Shown in pieces: positions 6,005 through 56,353 of a DNA stretch of 64,000 nt. The notes beneath the pieces are model-generated. The model was given only the letters and a program-made list of their open reading frames with translations. It was not told where the DNA came from and ran no database searches. The stretch is from Paraburkholderia ginsengiterrae. Its GTDB lineage: Bacteria > Pseudomonadota > Gammaproteobacteria > Burkholderiales > Burkholderiaceae. The number at the start of each line of letters is the position of its first letter. Within the stretch, counting starts at the first letter, position 1. The stretch is taken from the NCBI RefSeq assembly GCF_001645125.1, contig NZ_LXKA01000382.1, forward strand, positions 62,001-126,000, in the 5' to 3' direction. Both the position numbers and the translations under genes were made by a program.

Positions 6005-6190
6005 GATGCTTACCTCCAGACTTCGTTTGTCCGCAAACGCCCGTTTGCGTTTCAGTGCTTGCAGTCTAGGCTGCGGCCTGTTCGCAATTAAGTACTTGCA
6101 AAACAAAACAATGTTGTAGAAATAAGTACAAACCCTTAGACGCAAACATCGCGCACGCGGCAGCTTGCGTGCGCTCCATATCTGGAATCG

Positions 6191-7300
6191 TCACCCAGCG
6201 CGTTCGATCACTTCCGTCCGTATGCCCCATCGCGCAAACTCTGGTGCGAACTCGTGCAAGCTCAGCAAACCCGGACTGGTCTGTGCACCGATCGGGAATG
6301 CATCGCCGCCCGCCAGCCTCCGAGCTAATAAAATTGCCGCCATGCAAGGGACTTCCGGACCGTAGTTGTCGCCTACGGTCAGGTGCCATTCGACGCACAG
6401 CGGTTGCCCTTGAAGTGATCGTCCATCGAGCCGGATGACCATGCCGCCAAGTCCTGAGCCGAAGCGATCGAACCACGTCCCGATGCCATGCACTAATGGC
6501 GCCAGCAGGCTTGCGCGTGGGAGCAGTCGCTTGTGTCGCGCCCATGCAATCAAAGCGAATACGCGCTGCGTCAGTGCTACTTCAAGCGCCGCACGAAACA
6601 TGACGGTGGTCACACCCGCATAGCGACGCGGGAACAACTCCAGGTCCGGAACGTCGCACAATGCCGCCAACCGCGGTGTCAAGTGTGCAAATTGGACACG
6701 TGTCGGGCGTGCCCAACCCACCTGCTGCACCCATCCACCCGCTTGCCACACCGGGACCGCCTCGCCGCAGTATGACAACACGGCGGCCAGCGTCGCTTTG
6801 CCTCGTGGGGCATGCTGTGCCGGTGCGATACACATATCGATCGAGGAAAGTTCGTCGAAACGATTGCGCAGATCGTCGACGACGGCCGCCGAGAGCGAAG
6901 ACAGCGTACTCACGCCGCTAATGGCCGTGCGTCTAGCGGCTTTGAACTGCGCATCCAATGCGTCGGGGAAATCGCAGACGAACCGGCGGCCATCCGCAAG
7001 GTCAACATAGTGCGCGCCGCACTCTGCAACCGTTCGTGCAATATCGTAGCCTTGCCCTTGAAACGGCCCTGCCGTATGGATTACCAGACCTGGTTTGATG
7101 TCGCCGAGTCGCTGGCCAAAATCGGTTGCGCCGGTATCAAGCGCTATTGCGGGGACGCTTCCGGCCAAGGTTGCCGCGAACGCAGTTGCTCGCGCCTCGC
7201 TTCGCCCGGCAATCACGAGTTCTATTTCCGCATTGCCAGCAAGCGCGCGGCAAATGCGTGCACCGAAGTTGCCGTAGCCACCAAGCACGACGACTCGCAT
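6191..7300 (-). CDS. Saccharopine dehydrogenase-like NAD(P)-binding protein
   Basis: 369 residues. The N-terminus is a Rossmann fold with GGYGNFG at residues 7-13 and a following IAGRSEARA strand, as in the saccharopine dehydrogenase NADP-binding family (Pfam Sacchrp_dh_NADP). The C-terminal half has the substrate/dimerisation region but no recognisable signature of lysine-pathway enzymes, so it is better called a family member of unknown substrate; bacterial homologues include trans-acting enoyl reductase-like proteins. No metabolic partner is adjacent: the next gene upstream is divergent (cupin at 7487) and downstream is a DUF4148-like gene. Confidence 0.8.
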   Translation of the reverse strand: MRVVVLGGYGNFGARICRALAGNAEIELVIAGRSEARATAFAATLAGSVPAIALDTGATDFGQRLGDIKPGLVIHTAGPFQGQGYDIARTVAECGAHYVDLADGRRFVCDFPDALDAQFKAARRTAISGVSTLSSLSAAVVDDLRNRFDELSSIDMCIAPAQHAPRGKATLAAVLSYCGEAVPVWQAGGWVQQVGWARPTRVQFAHLTPRLAALCDVPDLELFPRRYAGVTTVMFRAALEVALTQRVFALIAWARHKRLLPRASLLAPLVHGIGTWFDRFGSGLGGMVIRLDGRSLQGQPLCVEWHLTVGDNYGPEVPCMAAILLARRLAGGDAFPIGAQTSPGLLSLHEFAPEFARWGIRTEVIERAG

Positions 7301-7486
7301 AGGCTATCGCTCCATTTGTTGTGTTCGAAACGTGTGAAAGAGTCCCTGCCGTCAGCCTTGCTCAGCAACATCCAATGCGGCAACAACAGCTGATTCGCAC
7401 AAGGTTTGTTAAAGTCATCGCGAATGGAAGCCGAAACCAGGTTTGCCGGCATTCGCTGCCGAGTATTATCTTGAATGGAGAAGACA

Positions 7487-7903
7487 TTGAAAACGACTAC
7501 CTGTTTGACTGTCGTAGCTGTCGCCTTGGGCTCGGCTGTCTGCCTACCTTGTGCCGCGCAAGAGTCGGGAACCGTCAAGCCTCAAATACTTCTTCAGCAA
7601 ATGGTCGAAGGCATGCCGAAAGGGGAAAAACAGGAACTTCGCGTTTTGACAGCGAGTTTCAAACCCGGCGATAAAACCGTTTTTCATACGCACAGGTTTC
7701 CGGTGACTGTTTATGTGCTGGAGGGTACCTTCACTTTAGAGATGGAAGACATGGCGCCCGTCACCGTCACTCAAGGTCAGGCAATGGTGGAGCCGCCGCA
7801 CGTGAAGATGACCGGTTATAACCGAAGCACCAGCGAGTCCCTCCGTGTCGTTGTCTTTTACGCCAGCGACCTGGACACACCGTTTCTTGATCCATTGCAT
7901 TGA
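7487..7903 (+). CDS. Exported cupin-domain protein
   Basis: A 138-residue single-domain cupin with an N-terminal signal peptide (MKTTTCLTVVAVALGSAV... cleaved near CAAQ). Cupin motif 1 is visible as FKPGDKTVFHTHRFPVTVYVLEGTF and motif 2 around QAMVEPPHVKMTGYN; the histidines suggest a metal site. I set the start at TTG 7487, because TGGAGAAG lies 6 bases before it; an in-frame ATG at 7475 overlaps that ribosome site and has none of its own. Predicted periplasmic, function unknown, probably transcribed alone and divergently from the saccharopine dehydrogenase-like gene. Confidence 0.8.
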   Translation: MKTTTCLTVVAVALGSAVCLPCAAQESGTVKPQILLQQMVEGMPKGEKQELRVLTASFKPGDKTVFHTHRFPVTVYVLEGTFTLEMEDMAPVTVTQGQAMVEPPHVKMTGYNRSTSESLRVVVFYASDLDTPFLDPLH

Positions 7904-12554: not shown

Positions 12555-13218
12555 TAGGAATTCCCCATCGACGCCGCTGTCACGTATACCACCACTCGAC
12601 GTTTCGCCGGAGCTGCTGTCAGGCTTGTTTCTGTCTCCTGGCGAGACTCAAACAGGTGCGGAGAACGTGCTCGCGTCCGAGCCCAATCGATAATTTATCC
12701 ACGCTGGAATACTACACCGCGGCGGGTGCGACGCCGTTGGGAAGTGAACGGGAGCTCGCAGATGAAGACTTTGCCCGGACTCGACCCGAAGGGGACACTC
12801 AATATTTCCCAAAGCTGCCATTCAGATCGATGACAGCGCACCGCTAGCACGGGTCGCGCCGAGCACGAATGGCCTGCCACTCGTTCCGATTGATGGCGAG
12901 GACTGTCGTAGTCCACTACAGCCCCTTGAATTTTCGATCTTGGACACGTTCCGACTTCTGAAGCGCTCCCCGATGCGGCTTGCAGACAAATTCAGCCACC
13001 TCGGGAGACCCGCAACCCGTTGTCATTGATTGACGCGGCGCGATCCTGAGCCGGCAGACCTCGCTGTCAATGCGAAACAGGCCCGCGATCATGGGATGCG
13101 CGAGCCTGTTTGCTAACACGGACATCCTCTGTTGCCAGATTCCTGGTGGCTTCACCCGGCTCTCGGCTAGGCGTTTTTTTGCGGACGTGGCGGTCACGTC
13201 AGCTGGTTTCGGTCGTCG
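12555..13218. other. Gene-poor stretch
   Basis: 664 bp without a gene I can defend. Short frames occur on both strands; the best-looking is a + strand run around 12820-13030 reading IDDSAPLARVAPSTNGLPL and later LDTFRLLKRSPMRLADKF, without start codon or known family. Base composition is slightly less GC-rich than the flanking operon, consistent with decayed sequence. Confidence 0.4.
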
Positions 13219-14028
13219 TCAATCGACGACCTGCGGCTGCAGTGACGTCACATGCACATGACCGGGCAGTCCGAATTCTTGACGCACGGCCGTCGCGATC
13301 CCATCGACCACATCCGTCACCAGCAAACGCCCTTTCTCGCTGCTCGAATCCTTCGCAGATGACAGCACGCCGCTCGACGGAACCCACGCCGTGCGCGCCG
13401 GGTACATATCGTAGGTCGGGAATTTCGCCGGGCCGTGCTCCGGGATACTCTCGAGCGATACCAGTTGCGGATGATAGTGAAGCATCATCGACGTCTCGAT
13501 CACGGCGGCATGTTCGAGCGCAATGCCGGGAAACCCGTCCGGGAAAATCGCGTCGAGCGTTTCCTTGCGACAGAACTCCCAGTGCTCGACACGCATGACT
13601 TCCATCCCGCTGTTGTCACCGATGTCGCGCATCGCGAGTTCGATACCCTCGGTCACGAACCACTGGTTTTCAAAATGCCCGACGACGATCACAAGACGCC
13701 TGACACCGTGACGGTGAAACTCCCGCACCGCATCACGAATCATTCCGCTCAACGTCGCGCCGTCGACACTCGTAGTGCCGCAGAAATGCTGACCACCGCC
13801 GCTCCTCGGTTGTGATTTATAGCCGTATGAAATCGCCGGCGCTACGACGCCACCGACCTCACGGGCCGCGTCCTCGCAAATCGCGCTCGCCAGCAACGCA
13901 TCAGTTCCAAGAGGAAGATGAGGTCCGTGCTGTTCCGTCGCGCCGCAAGGAAGAAATACGACCGATCCGGCCTTGACCCGCTGCTCGTATTCGAGCCAAC
14001 TGATGTTGTCCATACGCACGCTGTTCAT
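13219..14028 (-). CDS. Creatininase (creatinine amidohydrolase)
   Basis: 269 residues, close in length and motif order to the characterised Pseudomonas putida creatininase, which reversibly opens creatinine to creatine with two metal ions. Metal ligands are at the equivalent places: Glu32 and His34 (GATEQHG), Asp43 (LGTDALL), His118 and Glu120 (GHFENQ). The stretch YGYKSQ followed by SGGG and GTTS-DGATL (residues 68-93) is the subfamily mark of true creatininases, rather than of the broad creatininase fold (MftE, FAPy deformylase). Start ATG at 14028 overlaps the stop of the permease gene by 4 bp, so it is the second gene of a permease-creatininase operon. A creatinase to use the product is not in the window. 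Confidence 0.88.
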   Translation of the reverse strand: MNSVRMDNISWLEYEQRVKAGSVVFLPCGATEQHGPHLPLGTDALLASAICEDAAREVGGVVAPAISYGYKSQPRSGGGQHFCGTTSVDGATLSGMIRDAVREFHRHGVRRLVIVVGHFENQWFVTEGIELAMRDIGDNSGMEVMRVEHWEFCRKETLDAIFPDGFPGIALEHAAVIETSMMLHYHPQLVSLESIPEHGPAKFPTYDMYPARTAWVPSSGVLSSAKDSSSEKGRLLVTDVVDGIATAVRQEFGLPGHVHVTSLQPQVVD

Positions 14029-15470
14029 GTCGAACTCCTGTTATCGGCGAGCGGCGTCTGTTCCGACCGGACGTCGCGCCGCGCAAGATGAAAAAGGTAG
14101 TAGCTCCCGCCGCCCGCGCCGAGCCCGGCGAGCCATGAGAGATCGATACCTCCCAGCGCCATCGCGATGGGTCCCTGCATCGATTCGATACTGCCGATCT
14201 GAAAGAGCCAGGCTGCGATCACGCCCAACGCCAACGCCGCAATGCCGGACCACTTGACGTCTCCGCAGCCACTCACCGAGTGGTGACAGTAAAGCGCATC
14301 GACTTCGATCCGGCCGCGACGGACCAGAAAGAAATCAACGAGCACGATGCCGGCCCACGGCGCGATCCACACGACAAAGAAGACCATCAGATCCTCGAAA
14401 GTGCTCGCAAACGCGCCTGAATGCAGGAACAGATAAAGGATAAGGAGGCCGACAATGCCGGACGCGACGGAGACGACCCAGCGCGGAACGCGCAGATCCA
14501 GCGACAGCGTCGCGAGCGCCGCCGAATAAATGACGACGATATTTGTCGCGATCGGGCCGTGGACAAGTACGAGCAGAACAGGCAAAGCCATCGCACCGAA
14601 CACGGCAATGATGAGTTGGGCGGGATCGGCGCCGCTTCCTGCCGACGCGATCGCCGCGCCCAGAAAAGCCAGCCAGACGGTCGGAACGAACATGCCGAGC
14701 GAGGTCGCGCGAAATACCTGCTGGCTGCTCAACGTCAGCTTCGTGAAGCGTGTGTAGTCCGATGCATAGACGAGCCACGAAATACCCCATCCGATGCCGA
14801 TCGCGGTCATCAGCTTGCTCATCGCGGAGAGCTTCCCGACACCTTGGGCGGTTGAAACGTGCCAGTGAATATCAACGTGCGTGAAGGCAAGCACGGTCAT
14901 CACGACCATGATGACCAGGACGAACGGCATCGTGTAACGCTCGAAATACCGGATCGCGTGAAAGCCCCATGTCGCGATGCCCAACTGGATCAGCATGACC
15001 GCGATCGCAATGACATATTTGAGTTCGATGCCGCCGCTTATGCCCATGCGCTCAAGCGCCGCCACGGCAAGATCCAGAACAATCCATGTGTTGATCGCCA
15101 CCCAACCCATCGGCATCAACACCTGCATGAGCGTGGGCAGCCATGCGCCGCGCCGGCCGAACGCCAGCCTCGACAGCACCATTTGCGGAACGCCCGAGCG
15201 ATGTCCGATCACGCACATCGCGCCGAACAATGCACAACCCAGCACGTTGCCGATCACGATCACCGCCAGCGTCTCGACGAGACTCAGCCCCAGTTGGATG
15301 CCGATTGCCCCCAGCACCCAATTGATTGGTGCGACGTTCGCACCGGCCCAGATCCAGAACTGGTCCAGCTGTCCGGATGTTCTGCTTTCATCCGGCACGG
15401 GCTCTATACCGTGCATGTCGTATGCGGTGCTGGTGTCCGCATGCGCTTGCGCCATCTGATCGTTTGACAC
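14025..15470 (-). CDS. NCS1-family permease (purine-cytosine permease-like)
   Basis: 481 residues with 12 predicted membrane segments. NCS1 features are the N-terminal hydrophilic leader followed by FWIWAGANVAPINWVLG, the GHRSGVPQMVLSRLAFG loop after TM3, and the VYASDYTRF segment in TM6 seen in CodB/PucI-like carriers. NCS1 carriers bring in purines, cytosine, hydantoins, allantoin or thiamine precursors by cation symport. Coupling to creatininase (4-bp overlap) argues that the substrate here is creatinine or a similar cyclic guanidino compound; that is inference. Transcription starts in the 245-bp gap shared with the divergent azoreductase gene. Confidence 0.88.
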   Translation of the reverse strand: MSNDQMAQAHADTSTAYDMHGIEPVPDESRTSGQLDQFWIWAGANVAPINWVLGAIGIQLGLSLVETLAVIVIGNVLGCALFGAMCVIGHRSGVPQMVLSRLAFGRRGAWLPTLMQVLMPMGWVAINTWIVLDLAVAALERMGISGGIELKYVIAIAVMLIQLGIATWGFHAIRYFERYTMPFVLVIMVVMTVLAFTHVDIHWHVSTAQGVGKLSAMSKLMTAIGIGWGISWLVYASDYTRFTKLTLSSQQVFRATSLGMFVPTVWLAFLGAAIASAGSGADPAQLIIAVFGAMALPVLLVLVHGPIATNIVVIYSAALATLSLDLRVPRWVVSVASGIVGLLILYLFLHSGAFASTFEDLMVFFVVWIAPWAGIVLVDFFLVRRGRIEVDALYCHHSVSGCGDVKWSGIAALALGVIAAWLFQIGSIESMQGPIAMALGGIDLSWLAGLGAGGGSYYLFHLARRDVRSEQTPLADNRSST

Positions 15471-15545
15471 TACCGTCTCCTCCTGGGGTCACGACTCGGA
15501 ATCTCTGAGTGCGGATTTAAGCGGAGACAAATTAACGGCGAAATC

Positions 15546-15636
15546 GATGAATTCTCAACATGGGTTGAGAAAAATGTGACATCCGCCACGTGCCCGGCGC
15601 GGTTGAATTTTTCTCAACATACAGGAAAAATTCATC
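15546..15636. promoter_or_regulatory. Inverted-repeat cluster in the divergent promoter
   Basis: Between the permease and the azoreductase-like gene. TCTCAAC (15553-15559) and GTTGAGA (15564-15570) form a 7-bp palindrome around ATGG; a related GTTGA/TCAAC pair lies at 15602-15606 and 15614-15618; and GATGAATT (15546-15553) is mirrored by AATTCATC (15629-15636). Such paired half-sites fit operators of a LysR-type regulator, most plausibly the one at 18533-19450. Function is inferred. Confidence 0.5.
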
Positions 15637-15715
15637 AATCGCGCTGACGAAAGCATCATGGCTAAATCGGTGTTCCTGTTCTTCAAGTTTCAGATAGCCA
15701 AGGAATGCACACGCG

Positions 15716-16363
15716 ATGACTACCCTTCTGCACATCGATGCCAGCGCGCGCAATGGCCGCTCCCTCAGCCGCAAGCTCTCGGGCGCCTTCATCGACGCCT
15801 GGACGCAGCTCGAGCCCGCTGCAAAGATCATTACCCGTGACGTCGGGGCCAATCCGCCCCCCATCATCACGGAGGATTGGATCGCTGCCGTCTTCACGCC
15901 TGACGAGAACGTCACGCCGGAACAACGCGAGACATTGCGTCTGTCCGACGAACTGATCGACGAGCTCGACCGCGCAGACCTGATCGTGATCGGCACGCCA
16001 ATGTATAACTATGGGATGCCGGCAGCTCTCAAGTCGTGGTTCGACAAGGTCATCCGGATCGGCAAGACGTTCACGTTCGATCTCGCACGTGGAGACTTTC
16101 CGCTGGAGCCAGTCATGAGCGGCAAGAAGCTCGTCATTCTGAGTTCGCACGGCGAATTTGGATTCGGCCCTGGCGGCGTGCGCGAAAAGATGAATCACCT
16201 GGAGACCCACATCCTGACCTGCGCGCACTATCTGGGTGTCGAAGAAAGCCACGCGATCAGCATCAGCTACCAGGAGTTCGGCGACGCACGACATGAGGCG
16301 TCGGTGGCGGACGCGTTCGCTGCGGTACCGGTGCTGGCCCGTCAACTGGCTGGCGCTCGCTAG
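15716..16363 (+). CDS. FMN-dependent NADH azoreductase-like flavoprotein
   Basis: 215 residues of flavodoxin-like fold. The N-terminal HIDASARNGRSLSRKLS is the FMN phosphate loop, and MYNYGMPAALKSWFDKVIRIGKTF (from residue 96) is the AzoR-specific stretch; SSHGEFGFGPGG covers the third flavin loop. AzoR enzymes reduce quinones and azo dyes with NADH; the physiological substrate here is unknown. It heads a + strand operon with amidase and DUF1989 genes. The ATG at 15716 has AAGGA 11 bases upstream. Its presence in a guanidino-type cluster is not explained by known creatinine chemistry; it may meet a redox or detoxification need. Confidence 0.85.
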   Translation: MTTLLHIDASARNGRSLSRKLSGAFIDAWTQLEPAAKIITRDVGANPPPIITEDWIAAVFTPDENVTPEQRETLRLSDELIDELDRADLIVIGTPMYNYGMPAALKSWFDKVIRIGKTFTFDLARGDFPLEPVMSGKKLVILSSHGEFGFGPGGVREKMNHLETHILTCAHYLGVEESHAISISYQEFGDARHEASVADAFAAVPVLARQLAGAR

Positions 16364-16385
16364 ACTTCGTTACGACGCGATCGTC

Positions 16386-17744
16386 ATGCACACCGATCTG
16401 ACGATGACCGGGACGGCGTTAGGGCTGCACGATGGCAGCATCGAAGCGGTCGAGCTGGTCAGCACATCGATCAGTAAATCGCGCGCGGCGCGCCATGTCT
16501 TCATCTCGTTCATAGAAGGTGCGCACGACGACGCCGTGGAAGCGGCCCGCAGACGCAGCCTGGGCGCGCCGCTTGGCCGGCTCGATGGCATTCCGTTCGC
16601 CGTGAAAGACATGATCGACGTGGCAGGCAGCATAACGACGGCTGGAACGATCACACGGATCGAATCACCGCCGGCATCCCGGGACGCCGCCGTGATTGCC
16701 GCGATGCGGGCAGCAGGGATGATTCCGGTCGGCAAGACGAATCTGAGCGAATTCGCCTTCTCGGGGCTTGGGCTCAATCCGCACTTCGGCACGCCAACCG
16801 CGGACTTCCACACTTCAGCGCCACGTGCACCCGGCGGTTCGTCTTCCGGGTCAGCGATCGCGGTGCAACACGGCCTCGTGACAGCGGCAATCGGAACCGA
16901 TACCGCCGGCTCGATCCGCGTGCCGGCTGCGTTCAACGGACTGGTCGGCTTTCGCGCATCGACCCGCCGCTACGACATGGGCGGCATCCATCCGCTCGCC
17001 GTCACACTCGATACCCTCGGGCCGCTCGCCCGTACCGTCGAAGACTGTGTGCTCCTCGACCGCGCGATGCGCGGCTGCGCGGATATTGGCGTGTGTGCCG
17101 CACCGCTGGAGCGCGTCCGGTTCGTCGTCGATTCGTCGGTGCTCGAGGACTCGGCGCTCCAGTCAGACGTCGCGCGCAATCTACGCAATGTCGTGACGCG
17201 GTTGCGTCAATGCGGTGTGCGCGTGGAAGAGCGCCCCGTCCAAGCATTCATGCGCACGCGCGAGCTGATCGCGACACAGGGCTGGCTCGGCGCCATAGAG
17301 GCGTGGTCGCTGCTTCGGGAAGTCGTCGAAGGCGAGCGCGGCGATCAGCTTGATCGTCGTGTTCGCAGCAGACTGCTGGCTGCCAGAGACATCGATCGGT
17401 ACGCGGAAAACCGCATCCTAACCTTGCGCGCCGAACTGATGCTGAACATGCTGCACGAACTCGGCGACGCTGTGCTGGTCACGCCGACGGTCAAACATGT
17501 CGCGCCTTCGCTTGCCGCGCTCGAGGCCGATGATCGTTTGTTTGCCGCGATCAATCTCGAGACCCTTTCGCTGACGATGCCAGGAAGTCTCCTTGATATG
17601 CCAGGTGTTGCCATGCCGTCGGGCGTCGATCGACAGGGTCTGCCTACATCAGTACTTTTTTCCGCGCCGCAGGGGCACGACGATCGGCTCCTGCGCACCT
17701 GTCTCGCGGTCGAGTCAGTGTTGCGGGCGCGGCCGGTCCAATAA
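16386..17744 (+). CDS. Amidase-signature hydrolase
   Basis: 452 residues from the chosen ATG. The Ser-cisSer-Lys triad is visible: Lys74 in PFAVKDMID, the Ser-rich GGSSSGS loop at 150-156, and nucleophile Ser176 in GTDTAGSIRVPA. The family includes allophanate hydrolase, glutamyl-tRNA amidotransferase A and many amide or carbamoyl hydrolases. The frame is open back into the azoreductase gene, so the start is uncertain: ATG 16386 lies 22 bp after that stop with a weak ribosome site, and ATG 16404 is an alternative. Position between azoreductase and DUF1989 genes suggests hydrolysis of a ureido or amide intermediate, by analogy with allophanate hydrolase in the guanidine route; this is inference. 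Confidence 0.85.
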   Translation: MHTDLTMTGTALGLHDGSIEAVELVSTSISKSRAARHVFISFIEGAHDDAVEAARRRSLGAPLGRLDGIPFAVKDMIDVAGSITTAGTITRIESPPASRDAAVIAAMRAAGMIPVGKTNLSEFAFSGLGLNPHFGTPTADFHTSAPRAPGGSSSGSAIAVQHGLVTAAIGTDTAGSIRVPAAFNGLVGFRASTRRYDMGGIHPLAVTLDTLGPLARTVEDCVLLDRAMRGCADIGVCAAPLERVRFVVDSSVLEDSALQSDVARNLRNVVTRLRQCGVRVEERPVQAFMRTRELIATQGWLGAIEAWSLLREVVEGERGDQLDRRVRSRLLAARDIDRYAENRILTLRAELMLNMLHELGDAVLVTPTVKHVAPSLAALEADDRLFAAINLETLSLTMPGSLLDMPGVAMPSGVDRQGLPTSVLFSAPQGHDDRLLRTCLAVESVLRARPVQ

Positions 17745-17765
17745 AATTTCCGTGGAGAACAGCTA

Positions 17766-18380
17766 ATGAATACGACATCCCCTGGTCCTGACAGTGCGCC
17801 CATGCGTATTCCCGCGCGCAGCGGGGTGGCGGTCCAGCTCGCCAAAGGCATGACCATCAAGGTGATCAATACACACGGTCATCAGGTAGTCGATACGTGG
17901 GCGTTCAATCAGGATGACATCGGCGAATCGATGTCGATGGAGCATAGCCGTACGTCGATGCTGAAGCTCGTGCCGAAGGTGGGCGATACACTGCTCACGA
18001 ACCATCGGCGCGCTATCCTGACGCTGGTCGAAGACACGACGCCAGGCGTGCACGACACGCTGATCGCAGCCTGCGACAGGCATCGTTACGCACAGCTGGG
18101 CGTGGTCGGCTACCATGACAACTGCACCGACAACCTCGCCGCTGCGCTCGCAAGACTCGGCCTGAAGCCGCAAGAAACGCCCTGTCCGCTGAACCTGTTC
18201 ATGAATGTGCCGGTGCGCGGGAACGGTCAACTGGGATTCGCGCAGCCAGTCAGTCAGGCCGGCCAGTACGTCGCATTGCGCGCGGAAATGGATCTCATCA
18301 TCGTAATGTCGGCCTGCCCGCAGGATGTCACAGCGGTCAATGGGATGATGCCGACTGACGCGCATTATTCGATCATCTGA
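17766..18380 (+). CDS. DUF1989 / urea carboxylase-associated family protein
   Basis: 204 residues covering one DUF1989 domain. Diagnostic segments are the N-terminal GMTIKVINTHGHQVVDTWAF, GYHDNCTDNL (His117, Cys120), PCPLNLFMNVPV and SACPQDVTAVN (Cys184). In the bacterial guanidine pathway two DUF1989 proteins (CgdA and CgdB) form carboxyguanidine deiminase, so a deimination role on a guanidino carbon has precedent. Here a single copy stands 21 bp behind the amidase gene with a GGAGAA ribosome site, without guanidine carboxylase. I infer a deiminase-like or accessory role in processing creatine or a related compound. Confidence 0.87.
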   Translation: MNTTSPGPDSAPMRIPARSGVAVQLAKGMTIKVINTHGHQVVDTWAFNQDDIGESMSMEHSRTSMLKLVPKVGDTLLTNHRRAILTLVEDTTPGVHDTLIAACDRHRYAQLGVVGYHDNCTDNLAAALARLGLKPQETPCPLNLFMNVPVRGNGQLGFAQPVSQAGQYVALRAEMDLIIVMSACPQDVTAVNGMMPTDAHYSII

Positions 18381-18398
18381 ATCCGCTTTTGGCACGCA

Positions 18399-18416
18399 GC
18401 CCGCTCCGCAGCGGGC
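18399..18416 (+). terminator. Possible terminator hairpin after the DUF1989 gene
   Basis: GCCCGCT at 18399-18405 pairs with AGCGGGC at 18410-18416 around a CCGC loop, 19 bases past the stop. There is no T-tract, so termination would need Rho or be partial. Confidence 0.35.
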
Positions 18417-18532
18417 CGGTGTTCGCGCGATGACGACGAAACGGCGGCGGCGAGCCCAGCTGGTGCGCGCGGCCGGTTACGGTAAAATGCATTCACCCTA
18501 ACCGGCCGACTTCCGGATGAAGGTATTTCGCC

Positions 18533-19450
18533 ATGCGTAAGTTGCCACCGCTCAATTCAATCCGCGCATTCGAGGCCGCAGCCCGGCATCAAAGCTTCAC
18601 AGCAGCCGCGGCTGAACTGTCCGTGACCATCACGGCAGTGAGCCATCAGATCCGGCAACTCGAAGCACGCATTGGCCACAAACTTTTCGAAAGAACGGGT
18701 CGTGCGGTCACGCTCACGCCAGTGGGCAAGACGATTTACCCGCTCCTAAGAGACGGCTTCGACCAAATCGCTCAGGCGTTCGAGGTCGTCAATACTCGCA
18801 CAAACGAAGACTCGATCCAGATCTCGGCCACCCGCGCATTCGCGGAGCGCTGGTTGATGCCCAGGCTGTCGCAGTTCAATGCCATCCACCCGGACATCAT
18901 GGTGCATATCCACGGCTCGGAGAAAGCCGTCGATCTGCGCGCCGAAGACATCGACGTCGCTATTCGGTATGGACCCGTCGATACGGATCAACAGGATTCC
19001 GTGATTCTGGAGGACTGCTATATCGCGGTCGCCGATCGGGGTATTTGTCCTGAAGACCGTATCCCGACGATCGAGGACTTCCGCAAACGCCCGCTACTCG
19101 CCTACAAGTGGGAAAACCGCGCGCTGAATGCCCCGGACTGGTCCGCGTGGCTCGCGCTCGTCGAACACAATCAAAGCGTCGATTTCCGAATTTCCTGGTA
19201 TAGCGAAGAAATGCTCGCGCTCTACGCCGCGGAGTGTGGTCTTGGGCCGTTGATGTGCAGTAACGTGTTGATCGACGAAGAACTACGCACTGGCCGCCTG
19301 TGCCGGATCGAAGGCCCCTGCCTGCCGGGTTTCTCGTATCGCCTCGTGGAGACGACCTCGACGCGCCCCAAGAAAGGTCTTCGCCCTTTCACGACATGGC
19401 TGCGTGAAGAGGCCCGCTTGTTTCGCGATAGGTCTGCGGTGACCGGATAA
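18533..19450 (+). CDS. LysR-family regulator, GcvA type
   Basis: 305 residues. HTH at residues 1-65 (LPPLNSIRAFEAAARHQSFTAAAAELSVTITAVSHQIRQLEARIGHKLF), the wording typical of GcvA-like regulators; the effector domain contains FAERWLMPRLSQF and the VDLRAEDIDVAIRYG stretch. It follows the DUF1989 gene by 152 bp on the same strand and is the obvious local regulator of the creatininase cluster; the palindromes at 15546-15636 are candidate binding sites. The inducer would be expected to be the transported compound or its product. Confidence 0.88.
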   Translation: MRKLPPLNSIRAFEAAARHQSFTAAAAELSVTITAVSHQIRQLEARIGHKLFERTGRAVTLTPVGKTIYPLLRDGFDQIAQAFEVVNTRTNEDSIQISATRAFAERWLMPRLSQFNAIHPDIMVHIHGSEKAVDLRAEDIDVAIRYGPVDTDQQDSVILEDCYIAVADRGICPEDRIPTIEDFRKRPLLAYKWENRALNAPDWSAWLALVEHNQSVDFRISWYSEEMLALYAAECGLGPLMCSNVLIDEELRTGRLCRIEGPCLPGFSYRLVETTSTRPKKGLRPFTTWLREEARLFRDRSAVTG

Positions 19451-46390: not shown

Positions 46391-47845
46391 GTGCCTGACT
46401 CCGTTGGCGCGAAGCGCAACGAACCTGCTATGCAACAAAACGATCCGACTACATCAGCGGCACAAGAAGACCCATCCACGCTGTTTGCGGGGCGTGGCTC
46501 GGTGGCGGCTCGCATCGAGCTGGGCAAGGCGGCACGCAAGAAGGTGCCGCGTGCGGAGCTGGGGGTCTGCAAGATCGAGGACCGCGACCCCATGGCGCTG
46601 CTCGACGCGTCGAACGTGGGGCGGGTGGCGGAGCTGATCCCCATTCGCTACGGGCGCATGGTCGCGAACCCTTTCGCGTTCTATCGCGGTTCCGCGCCGC
46701 TCATGGCCTACGACCTGTCGAAGCTGCCGCGTTCCGACGTGATCGTGCAACTGGGCGGCGACGCGCATCTGGCTAATTTCGGCTTGTTCGCGAGTCCCGA
46801 GCGGCGCGTTCTCTTCGGCCCCAACGACTTCGACGAAACGCTGCCCGGTCCGTTCGACTGGGATCTGCGCAGGCTGGCGACATCGTTCGTGATTGCCGCG
46901 CGCGAACGCGGATTCTCAGCGCGTGACCAGCGCGCCGTGGTGCGCCGGCTATGCGAGACGTTCCGGCAACAGATCGCCGCGTTCAGCCGCATGGACACGC
47001 TCGACATCTGGTACTACCAGTTCGGTGCGTCGAGCATGCTGGAGATTGCCGATTCGGCGGAGGAAAGAAGAAAAGAACAGGCGGTTATCGAGAAGGCGAG
47101 GTTGCAGTCGTCGCGCTCCGTGTTGACGCATTCAACCGTACTCGTCAATGGCAAGCTGCGCATCAAGGACGTGCCGCCGCTCGTGTATCACGTCCCACTG
47201 GAGACCGCGCACGATCAGAAGTACTACAACGAAATGGTTCGGCGTTTCTTCGCCGACTACCGGTTGACCCTTCCGGATGACAGGCGCGCATTATTCGATC
47301 GCTACGAACTGGTGGATGTCGCCATTCGTGTGGTCGGTATTGGCTCGGTGGGAACGCGCTGCTACGAGGCGCTGTTCATGGCCGACGGCGAGTGTCCGCT
47401 GTTCCTTCAACTCAAGGAGGCACGGGCTTCCGTGCTGGAGGGCTACGTGGCGCCGAGCCGCTATCCGAATCACGGCCAGCGGGTGGTGAACGGCCAGCGT
47501 CTGCTGCAATCGGCGAGCGACATTTTTCTCGGGTGGTCGAAGATGCGCCACACGGGCAATGACTTCTACGTGCGGCAATTGCGCGACATGAAAGGCGCGT
47601 TCGACTTCACCACCTTCGACGTTGAAGATCTCGGCGAGTACGCGGTCTCGTGCGCGCACGCGCTCGCCCATGCGATGTCAAAAGCGGGAGACCCCGCGTT
47701 GCTCTCCGGCTATCTGGGCAAGTCGGCGGCATTTGACGAGGCTATCGAGCGATTCGCGCTCGCGTATGCGGAACAGAACGAGGCTGACTGGACGGTGTTG
47801 AAAGCAGCAGTCAAGGCGGGGCGCGTTCAGGTCATTCATGACTGA
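46391..47845 (+). CDS. DUF2252 family protein
   Basis: 484 residues with a GTG start at 46391 behind GGAGG. The DUF2252 domain (about 65-470) shows IPIRYGRMVANPFAFYRGSAPLMAYDL, GDAHLANFGLFASPERRVLFGPNDFDETLPGPFDWDLRRLATSF, and GQRVVNGQRLLQSASDIFLGW. The fold is related to protein kinase-like phosphotransferases (the G-D-x-H-x-x-N and D-F-D-E motifs resemble catalytic-loop elements), but no activity is established for the family. It follows the SulP gene closely. Confidence 0.92.
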   Translation: MPDSVGAKRNEPAMQQNDPTTSAAQEDPSTLFAGRGSVAARIELGKAARKKVPRAELGVCKIEDRDPMALLDASNVGRVAELIPIRYGRMVANPFAFYRGSAPLMAYDLSKLPRSDVIVQLGGDAHLANFGLFASPERRVLFGPNDFDETLPGPFDWDLRRLATSFVIAARERGFSARDQRAVVRRLCETFRQQIAAFSRMDTLDIWYYQFGASSMLEIADSAEERRKEQAVIEKARLQSSRSVLTHSTVLVNGKLRIKDVPPLVYHVPLETAHDQKYYNEMVRRFFADYRLTLPDDRRALFDRYELVDVAIRVVGIGSVGTRCYEALFMADGECPLFLQLKEARASVLEGYVAPSRYPNHGQRVVNGQRLLQSASDIFLGWSKMRHTGNDFYVRQLRDMKGAFDFTTFDVEDLGEYAVSCAHALAHAMSKAGDPALLSGYLGKSAAFDEAIERFALAYAEQNEADWTVLKAAVKAGRVQVIHD

Positions 47846-55096: not shown

Positions 55097-55537
55097 GAGC
55101 GCAGTGGTCTTGGGAGTCAACTGCGAGTGTAAGGGGATTCCCGTGACAACGCAGAAAGGCCCCAGGTCCCTCTTTTAATGCGAACGACCACCGGTCTCAT
55201 TCTCGCTTACGCCGTCCATGCGGAGTCGTGGCGACAATGCTTCGTATAGCGAATTAAAAAATTCAGTCAACAAAATGGAATATATCTTTCGAATGCCTTT
55301 TTCGATTTCCAGGCGCTGGGATAGCTGTATTGCATGACCGCGTAACATTGACGCGTGAAATATGCCACGCCCATTTACAGTATCTGGCGCGCTACAATCA
55401 CTGGCCGAATCCGACCTTCGTTCCATTTCACAATGCCGGTCGCCGTGAATCCGGCATCGTATGTTCGCCGTTCCGTGTCCGCATTGCCGTCACACCCTTT
55501 CACGAACCGGAACAAACCGTTTCTACGAGGACATGTC
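55097..55537. other. Divergent intergenic region
   Basis: 441 bp between the MbfA-like gene and the exported creatininase-family gene. It must hold promoters in both directions. Frames here are without ribosome sites; I find no Fur-box-like 19-bp palindrome and no hairpin of note. Confidence 0.4.
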
Positions 55538-56353
55538 ATGCGCTTCCCCCTTCGACTAGCCTTGGCATCGGCCATGGTACTGGTCACCACCCACGCCGCA
55601 GTGGCACAGGCACCGAAGACGGTGCAGCTGGAGGACCTGACCTGGACAGAGTTGCGCGACCAGATTCACGCGGGCAAAACCACCATCATCATCCCTATCG
55701 GCGGGACCGAGCAAAGCGGGCCCGACGTTGCACTCGGCAAGCACAACGCGCGCGTGAAGGTCTTGTCCCAGCGCATCGCGGAGGGCCTCGGCAACGCGAT
55801 CGTCGCGCCGGTCATCGCTTATGTGCCGGAGGGCGGCTATGCGCCGCCGACCTCGCACATGCGCTTTCCCGGCACCATCACCGTGCCGGACGACGTGTTC
55901 GAGAAGACATTGGAATCCGCGGCGAACAGTTTCAAGGTCCACGGGTTCACGAACATCGTCTTTCTTGGCGATCACGGCGGTTACCAGAACGACATCAGGC
56001 ACGCCGTGGCCCAGCTCAACAAGAGTTGGGCCGGCTCAGGCGCACGGGCATTCGTGCCGCCGGAGTACTACGGCATGAGTTCCGACGGCTACGCACAGAT
56101 CCTGCGTCAGCACGGCGTCAGTGATGCCGAGATCGGCACCCATGCCGGACTCGCCGATACGTCGCTGCTCCTTGCAGTTGCACCGCAGATGGTGCGGCTC
56201 GAGCACCTGCGCAGCGGCCCGAAGCTCGGGGCAGCCGATGGTGTGTATGGCGGCGACCCGCGCAGATCGAGCGTCGAACTTGGTCAGTTGGGTGTCGACG
56301 CAATCGTGTCTCGCACAATCGATGCGATCAGGAAGGAGACAGGCGGTCACTAA
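55538..56353 (+). CDS. Exported creatininase-family protein
   Basis: 271 residues. ATG 55538 (GAGGAC upstream) opens a signal peptide ending THAAVAQ. The creatininase fold is seen in LTWTELRDQIHAGKTTIIIPIGGTEQSGPDVALGKHN, VAPVIAYVPEGGYAPPTSHMRFPGTITV and FLGDHGGYQND. Against catalytic creatininase the ligand set differs: the His of E-Q-H-G is Ser, the Asp of L-G-T-D is His-Asn, and G-H-x-E-N is GDHGG, a pattern of a separate secreted subfamily. It is thus not a creatininase by function. A beta-propeller gene follows 62 bp downstream. Confidence 0.82.
   Translation: MRFPLRLALASAMVLVTTHAAVAQAPKTVQLEDLTWTELRDQIHAGKTTIIIPIGGTEQSGPDVALGKHNARVKVLSQRIAEGLGNAIVAPVIAYVPEGGYAPPTSHMRFPGTITVPDDVFEKTLESAANSFKVHGFTNIVFLGDHGGYQNDIRHAVAQLNKSWAGSGARAFVPPEYYGMSSDGYAQILRQHGVSDAEIGTHAGLADTSLLLAVAPQMVRLEHLRSGPKLGAADGVYGGDPRRSSVELGQLGVDAIVSRTIDAIRKETGGH

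Follow-up and report, generated by a model that had tools for sequence, protein, structure and literature searches.

Besides creatininase itself, three described systems come closest to the six-gene cluster reported here, which lies at positions 13219 to 19450 of a 64,000-nucleotide stretch of Paraburkholderia ginsengiterrae DNA (contig NZ_LXKA01000382.1; the whole stretch is referred to as the window) from a genome of 8.5 Mb. The guanidine carboxylase pathway (guanidine carboxylase, CgdAB and AtzF), which is under guanidine riboswitches, resembles it in pairing DUF1989 proteins with an amidase-family enzyme that acts on guanidino nitrogen, and the nearest relatives of the window creatininase sit in Guanidine-I riboswitch loci. 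However, the window cluster has a single DUF1989 gene where that pathway has a pair, it carries a LysR gene and no riboswitch, and its genome holds a separate guanidine operon on another contig (C35). In the clusters for creatininase, creatinase and sarcosine oxidase, the creatininase gene of P. fungorum and Azoarcus adjoins a permease annotated as cytosine permease, but these clusters include a creatinase, for which one creatinase query against the whole window genome gave no match at E<=1e-60, and the window permease shares 29% and 41% identity with theirs. The third system is allantoin degradation by PuuE-type allantoinase, an enzyme which opens the hydantoin ring. A polysaccharide-deacetylase-family enzyme occupies the creatininase slot of the operon in Rhizobiales, although this protein scores far under the PuuE cut-off.

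The six genes were found at the positions and in the families given by the original prediction. The gene of a creatininase-family metallo-amidohydrolase, the candidate for ring opening (13219..14028, minus strand; TIGR04448), overlaps by 4 nt with an NCS1-family permease gene (14025..15470, minus strand; PF02133). This pair is divergent from the genes of an FMN-dependent (flavin mononucleotide) NAD(P)H oxidoreductase of the azoreductase/quinone reductase family (15716..16363, plus strand; PF02525), an amidase-signature hydrolase (16386..17744, plus strand; PF01425), a DUF1989 protein (17766..18380, plus strand; PF09347) and a LysR-type regulator of the GcvA-like subfamily (18533..19450, plus strand; LysR domains). 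The gaps are 22 nt between azoreductase and amidase, 21 nt between amidase and DUF1989 and 152 nt between DUF1989 and LysR.

We tentatively favour, at slightly short of an even chance, a LysR-controlled accessory catabolic cluster for a small nitrogen heterocycle which is not creatinine and in which the amide bond is most likely of the cyclic acyl-guanidine or ureide type; the role of the cluster is probably also detoxifying. The substrate, the order of the steps and each reaction are inferred; gene content, synteny, pocket residues and phylogeny are observed directly. The NCS1 permease would import the ring compound, the azoreductase-like flavoprotein would reduce it or its quinoid form, and the creatininase-family metalloenzyme would open the ring by hydrolysing its amide. 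The guanidino or ureido group exposed in this way would then lose nitrogen to the DUF1989 zinc enzyme, and the amidase-signature enzyme would cut the remaining amide to give ammonia. A polysaccharide-deacetylase-family enzyme, a relative of allantoinase PuuE, is proposed to take over the ring-opening step in Rhizobiales.

Conservation of the cluster and its promoter

The best 80 loci were taken from a search with the window creatininase, whose nearest named relatives are from Paraburkholderia and Trinickia. Sixteen of these loci were found at 76-92% identity and the other 64 are called sister loci. Among the loci at 76% identity or above, permease, azoreductase, DUF1989 and LysR genes were observed in 15/15 and the amidase gene in 13/15 (a 5-kb contig, L004, was left out), a neighbourhood that is far beyond chance. 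With the azoreductase as query, 6 of 145 genomes of the same genus matched at E<=1e-60, four of them with the cluster, while 19 of 298 Pseudomonas genomes matched at E<=1e-90, 15 of them with the cluster (genome G600 being counted through locus L007). As an accessory trait the cluster is rare, and no paper on it was found in the open-access library searched.

The 39 azoreductase rows were merged to 32 distinct loci, seven Pseudomonas loci being duplicates. The azoreductase is present in all 32 by construction as it served as the search marker, and a LysR gene was also found in all 32. A DUF1989 gene was observed as well in 26 of them (7 Burkholderiaceae and 19 Pseudomonas), and it is this conserved neighbourhood that bears out the earlier view of the cluster as a real unit. 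Creatininase genes are present in 24 of the 26, permease genes in 25, amidase genes in 21, VOC-family genes in 17 and deacetylase-family genes in none; the VOC-family gene occurs in 17/19 Pseudomonas and 0/7 Burkholderiaceae cluster loci. One locus (L113) ends at a contig edge, and its genome, G525, carries the creatininase gene on another contig. Locus L173, the sole cluster locus with no NCS1 permease, has an amino acid permease family gene (6084-7631) between its LysR and amidase genes. The azoreductase, which the original prediction had put aside as a misfit, is among the best conserved cluster members by sequence (69-94% identity). That prediction had also suggested a search for the neighbourhood across Burkholderiaceae and for the absence of creatinase from the genomes concerned; the neighbourhood was recovered in the 7 Burkholderiaceae and 19 Pseudomonas loci, and 4 of the 45 genomes searched carry a creatinase.

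The remaining six of the 32 loci hold azoreductase and LysR genes only, and their six genomes gave no creatininase match at E<=1e-30. Such loci would be expected if an azoreductase-LysR stress module lay by chance beside an unrelated module for uptake and hydrolysis of a nitrogen heterocycle. We consider this very unlikely, for the two modules are joined in 26/32 loci across two families and again in the Rhizobiales version, and the divergent promoter contains two palindromes of one kind, one per side. Outside the two families, azoreductase relatives at 46-64% identity were drawn from 398 genomes of the phylum and 61 genomes of one order. Fifteen of these loci (L105-L109 and L125-L134) were not counted as members; at the thresholds used, a DUF1989 gene (51-52%) was found in two of them and the cluster amidase, permease and creatininase in none. 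In L125 (9848-12248) and L127 (9681-12054), from two genomes of another order, an azoreductase relative (57-60%) lies near a DUF1989 gene and the rest of the cluster is absent.

The alignment of the divergent promoters (245 bp in the window) revealed two palindromes, of the forms CTCAAC-N4-GTTGAG and GTTGAA-N5-CTCAAC, as candidate LysR sites. The palindrome CTCAACATGGGTTGAG (15554..15569) lies on the permease side and was observed in 7/7 aligned Burkholderiaceae cluster promoters, with one base different in L005, but not in the two azoreductase-LysR-only loci aligned with them. The palindrome GTTGAATTTTTCTCAAC (15602..15618) would serve the azoreductase operon and is also found 5' of the azoreductase gene in the Burkholderiaceae azoreductase-LysR-only loci L111 and L114. 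At two mismatches, 0.11 matches per window are expected for CTCAAC-N4-GTTGAG and 0.16 for GTTGAA-N5-CTCAAC, the patterns having been written after the sites were seen.

As a control, each 260-bp upstream stretch was compared with 100 single-base shuffles. All nine Burkholderiaceae promoters, two azoreductase-LysR-only loci included, have a match that at most 1/100 shuffles equalled, the best match in L010 lying further upstream. For the Pseudomonas cluster rows (duplicates included), 14/26 were at <=2/100 and the rest at 3 to 14, and the position of the best match varies. The two Rhizobiales promoters were at 0 and 7. Of the four Pseudomonas azoreductase-LysR-only loci, one was at 0 and three at 5 to 8; of 16 other azoreductase loci, one was at 2 and the rest at 9 to 99. 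The shared palindromes are directly observed; as regulatory sites they would fit control of both operons by one LysR protein, whose most constant target would be the azoreductase, a fit which is not proof.

The creatininase-family protein and its riboswitch-linked relatives

The original prediction called the window protein a true creatininase, a name that holds by the family model and not by the substrate-pocket residues. It scores 372.1 bits against a cut-off of 235 for the creatininase equivalog model TIGR04448, and all five binuclear metal ligands named earlier (E32, H34, D43, H118 and E120) are kept. The solved creatininase structures (PDB 1j2t, 1q3k, 1v7z and 3a6e), which are of the Pseudomonas putida enzyme, belong with it to one family, have the same metal ligands and share the first tryptophan of the pocket (Trp154), which is retained in the cluster members; the same fold would be expected from the sequence. 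They differ elsewhere in the pocket, where the window protein has Ile169 and an Ala-Ala after His173 in place of Trp174 and Gly179-Gly180; Trp174 is reported in the structural papers to shape the creatinine site, and the structure 3a6e itself carries Phe at this position.

Our alignments show that the changes Trp174 to Ile, Asp175 to Ala and Gly179-Gly180 to Ala-Ala occur in all cluster members (33 rows, reduced by hand merging to 25 distinct loci, of which L001 is the window itself). Where a creatinase gene is found in the same locus, Trp and Gly-Gly were observed in 9/9 creatininases. Position 175 and Tyr121 also vary among these creatinase-linked proteins and are thus uninformative. The pair Trp with Ala-Ser was seen in L084, with no creatinase in its locus.

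These residues bear on the route first suggested for the cluster, in which creatininase would open creatinine to creatine, the DUF1989 protein would deiminate creatine to N-carbamoylsarcosine and the amidase would release sarcosine, with creatinase bypassed. The passed TIGR04448 model, the intact metal ligands, the zinc triad of the DUF1989 protein and a genome that, as the original prediction had it for the locus, has no creatinase are all in keeping with this route, as is genome G852, where a creatinase occurs alongside the cluster creatininase only. The creatinase search used one creatinase as query over 45 genomes at E<=1e-60, and its other three matches point the opposite way: G405, G660 and G808 each carry the cluster copy and, close to a creatinase gene, a further creatininase gene at 45-48% identity. 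The two such copies of G405 have Trp and Gly-Gly, that of G660 has an internal stop codon, and the creatininase and creatinase genes of G808 are about 5 kb apart. The creatinine route is unsupported because of the altered pocket in all cluster members, these second creatininases, the deacetylase-family swap in Rhizobiales, the nearest relatives in a riboswitch system and a permease distant from the two creatinase-linked permeases; it also leaves the azoreductase unexplained. Creatinine is an unlikely substrate and the route as a whole is highly improbable.

Phylogeny gave a similar separation. A midpoint-rooted tree was built on 43 rows, of which 13 are from the cluster, 17 from sister loci, 10 from creatinase-linked loci and 3 from others. 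All the cluster creatininases fall into a single clade (100/100), and the creatinase-linked proteins lie apart from them in another (100/99). The cluster proteins nest inside the sister loci (99/96 and 95/85), while the branch uniting the cluster with all sisters is weaker (86/95). With the cluster creatininases thus placed inside the sister group and outside the creatinase-linked clade, a guanidine-linked lineage is the most likely origin of the window enzyme. Under the favoured reading of the cluster, it would have been recruited from a lineage that is otherwise under Guanidine-I riboswitches.

The creatininase-family proteins of the 64 sister loci are 60-74% identical to that of the window and the rest of the cluster is absent there. 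Of 12 sister loci submitted to an Rfam search, four of which had been chosen for their UAAP pairs, 11 gave a Guanidine-I riboswitch. A covariance model built from 13 riboswitches of these 11 loci, which match by construction, was then matched at E<=0.001 by 56/64 sister loci, many of them close relatives (Stutzerimonas) and not independent. Examples are L059 (5726-5838), L062 (5727-5839), L069 (81-191) and L075 (3156-3293). In 55 loci the riboswitch and the creatininase gene share a strand, with the riboswitch on the 5' side, and in L082, a short contig, the sole match is downstream; five of the eight loci with no match are shorter than 9 kb. By comparison, none of 58 other loci (cluster, azoreductase-LysR-only, deacetylase-type, creatinase-linked and three others, with seven duplicates) matched at E<=0.1.

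Pfam domains in two sister operons (L024 and L067) include an NMT1-type binding protein, a fatty-acid-desaturase-family protein, EamA and parts of an ATP-binding cassette (ABC) transporter. L024, which itself has no riboswitch match, also encodes short-chain dehydrogenases/reductases, an isochorismatase-family protein and a metallo-beta-lactamase-family protein. A UAAP1/UAAP2 pair was found in 4/64 sister loci, and in the one pair scored (L059) both proteins exceed the curated cut-offs. In the open-access library searched, no paper on a riboswitch-controlled creatininase-family operon was found. The passages on guanidine operons in PMC12508155 and PMC12186494 mention no creatininase-family gene, and the string 'creatin' is absent from the latter. 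The riboswitch regulator of the sister operons names guanidine as the signal, which makes part of our reading directly testable.

A guanidine riboswitch in the cluster itself was considered and rejected: none was found at the gathering score over the whole window, and a relaxed search of 12900-18700 gave a gyrA-family match only, far below threshold (19.3 of 45 bits, E=0.46).

Exchange of the ring-opening enzyme and candidate substrates

The Rhizobium leguminosarum plasmid pR132503 and a Phyllobacterium plasmid carry permease, azoreductase, amidase, DUF1989 and LysR genes in the same divergent arrangement as the window. Their identities to the window proteins are 66-67% for the permease, 65-73% for the azoreductase, 50-54% for the amidase, 63-64% for DUF1989 and 58-61% for LysR. 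A polysaccharide-deacetylase-family gene is present in both operons and no creatininase gene was found in them, an enzyme swap that is directly observed. Five whole deacetylase-type plasmids gave no creatininase match at E<=1e-10, a search with no positive control on these plasmids whose query matched 18/25 genomes elsewhere. Conversely, deacetylase-family genes elsewhere in azoreductase-bearing genomes were seen only as 29-34% matches, in 3/25 genomes. The common denominator of the creatininase and deacetylase families would be the hydrolysis of a cyclic amide. The Phyllobacterium operon has an extra LysR gene in between, and its azoreductase (5933-6599 of L181) is annotated as two pieces, the match covering 65% of the length, so this copy may be broken.

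Azoreductase, amidase, DUF1989 and deacetylase-family genes also occur with other transporters in Aminobacter SR38, Leisingera and Alisedimentitalea. On plasmid pSR7 of Aminobacter sp. SR38 (L180, 1-15708), the deacetylase module has as neighbours a molybdopterin-dependent oxidoreductase and an ABC importer of the BMP type, which hint at a purine- or pterin-like substrate. The best curated match of the deacetylase-family protein is allantoinase PuuE at 74 bits, which with a cut-off of 424.6 excludes it as an allantoinase by this model. Its best solved match is 3rxz, a member of the deacetylase family, with the PuuE structures ranking lower.

The swap also invites an explanation with no guanidino group, namely the catabolism of a cyclic imide or hydantoin in which the creatininase or deacetylase would act as imidase, the amidase as half-amidase and the DUF1989 protein in another step. 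The proximity of the swap partner to PuuE among the curated models fits this, as do the presence of the hydantoin carrier Mhp1 among NCS1 permeases and the recurrence of deacetylase-family, amidase and DUF1989 genes together in Leisingera, Aminobacter and Alisedimentitalea, and again in Variovorax, where the deacetylase is 27% identical only. However, the guanidine-riboswitch link and the chemistry of carboxyguanidine deiminase suggest the removal of a C-N imine, which an imide would not need, and this explanation is unlikely, though of some weight.

The azoreductase could instead come first, reducing a redox-active pyrimidine or azapteridine of the divicine, alloxan or toxoflavin type that the other enzymes would dismantle, so that the cluster would serve both detoxification and use. 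Azoreductase and LysR do survive alone in 6/32 loci, although the azoreductase was the search marker, and a VOC-family gene is found in 17/19 Pseudomonas cluster loci and beside the permease gene in Rhizobium and Phyllobacterium. According to PMC5749703, toxoflavin-degrading VOC enzymes require a reduced substrate, which would suit such an order of steps. Yet the VOC protein best matches 3gm5, of lactoylglutathione-lyase type, none of its 12 solved-structure matches carries the name of a toxoflavin-degrading enzyme, and the gene is absent from 7/7 Burkholderiaceae cluster loci. The open-access library searched yielded nothing linking azoreductase, LysR and toxoflavin, and we regard this alternative as distinctly unlikely.

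An alignment with the closest solved relative, 3oru, shows that the window DUF1989 protein keeps the zinc cysteines C103, C120 and C184. The same three cysteines bind zinc in trimethylamine N-oxide (TMAO) demethylase, as described in PMC12560246, and carboxyguanidine deiminase is listed as a DUF1989 family member in PMC11271267. The window protein scores 117 bits against 284.7 for UAAP2 and 88.6 against 205.95 for UAAP1, both below the cut-offs. It is a single gene with its cysteines kept, whereas the UAAP1-type partners in four sister loci have no such cysteines, and so it does not form a CgdAB-type pair. It was also rejected as the CgdA of this genome, since the genome has a guanidine operon elsewhere (C35:140068-144306), in which two adjacent UAAP-type DUF1989 genes, one of them a UAAP2 gene over the cut-off, lie downstream of a Guanidine-I riboswitch. 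DUF1989 relatives at 49-68% identity adjoin agmatinase, M20 hydrolase and amino acid ABC genes, neighbours compatible with ureido or guanidino chemistry. The function proposed here, once shown, could give the family a substrate beyond those of carboxyguanidine deiminase and TMAO demethylase.

For the amidase, the closest NCBIfam model is PRK06102 (526.7 bits, under the cut-off of 559), and a Lys74-Ser153-Ser176 triad was assigned by motif. Its score of 181.7 bits against 511.05 for TIGR02713 falls short of an allophanate hydrolase. The closest solved relative of the azoreductase is FMN-dependent NADH-azoreductase 1 (3keg). Identity of the window permease is 66% to its counterpart in the Rhizobium deacetylase version, compared with 41% and 29% to the two permeases beside creatinase genes.

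A broader proposal, which is possible but doubtful, is that this creatininase clade acts on guanidine-releasing or guanidine-like cyclic compounds. It would comprise a riboswitch branch (56/64 loci) in a guanidino operon and a derived LysR branch, including the window, that degrades a cyclic acyl-guanidine with a single DUF1989 protein and an amidase, the creatininase and deacetylase folds being interchangeable. By the curated model the window protein counts as a creatininase, but its genome context and pocket residues argue against this name, and if they are right such relatives are misnamed. The guanidino-compound route of the original prediction stands as far as guanidino chemistry is plausible from the riboswitch relatives and the DUF1989 family, and is unsupported in its choice of creatinine.

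Several observations weigh against the favoured reading of a non-creatinine ring compound processed by the whole cluster. TIGR04448 names the window protein a creatininase well above its cut-off, and the Ile is not confined to the cluster: L207 (Salipiger; neither cluster nor creatinase-linked) has Ile with Ala-Ala, and L208, with no creatinase in its locus, has Trp with Ala-Ala. The creatinase of G852, with the cluster creatininase as its only partner, is a point for the creatinine route. The amidase is absent from 5/26 loci, the permease from L173, and the creatininase from the whole of G868, a cluster genome with none in its locus and no match elsewhere at E<=1e-30, so not every step would be obligatory. 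The six loci reduced to azoreductase and LysR suggest that these two may be a separate module, and roughly half of the Pseudomonas promoters match the palindrome weakly. Finally, as the cluster has no riboswitch, its guanidino link comes through the relatives of two cluster proteins only.

Other features of the window

An ARAGORN call of tRNA-Arg at 46615-46698 (plus strand) lies within a DUF2252 gene (46391-47845); Rfam finds no tRNA there and the call is probably false. A second creatininase-family gene was observed at 55355-56353 (plus strand), with 76.4 of 235 bits for TIGR04448 and a score under the cut-off for all three models matched. It is followed on its 3' side by the gene of a beta-propeller protein, the closest type being that of pyrroloquinoline quinone (PQQ)-dependent catabolism.

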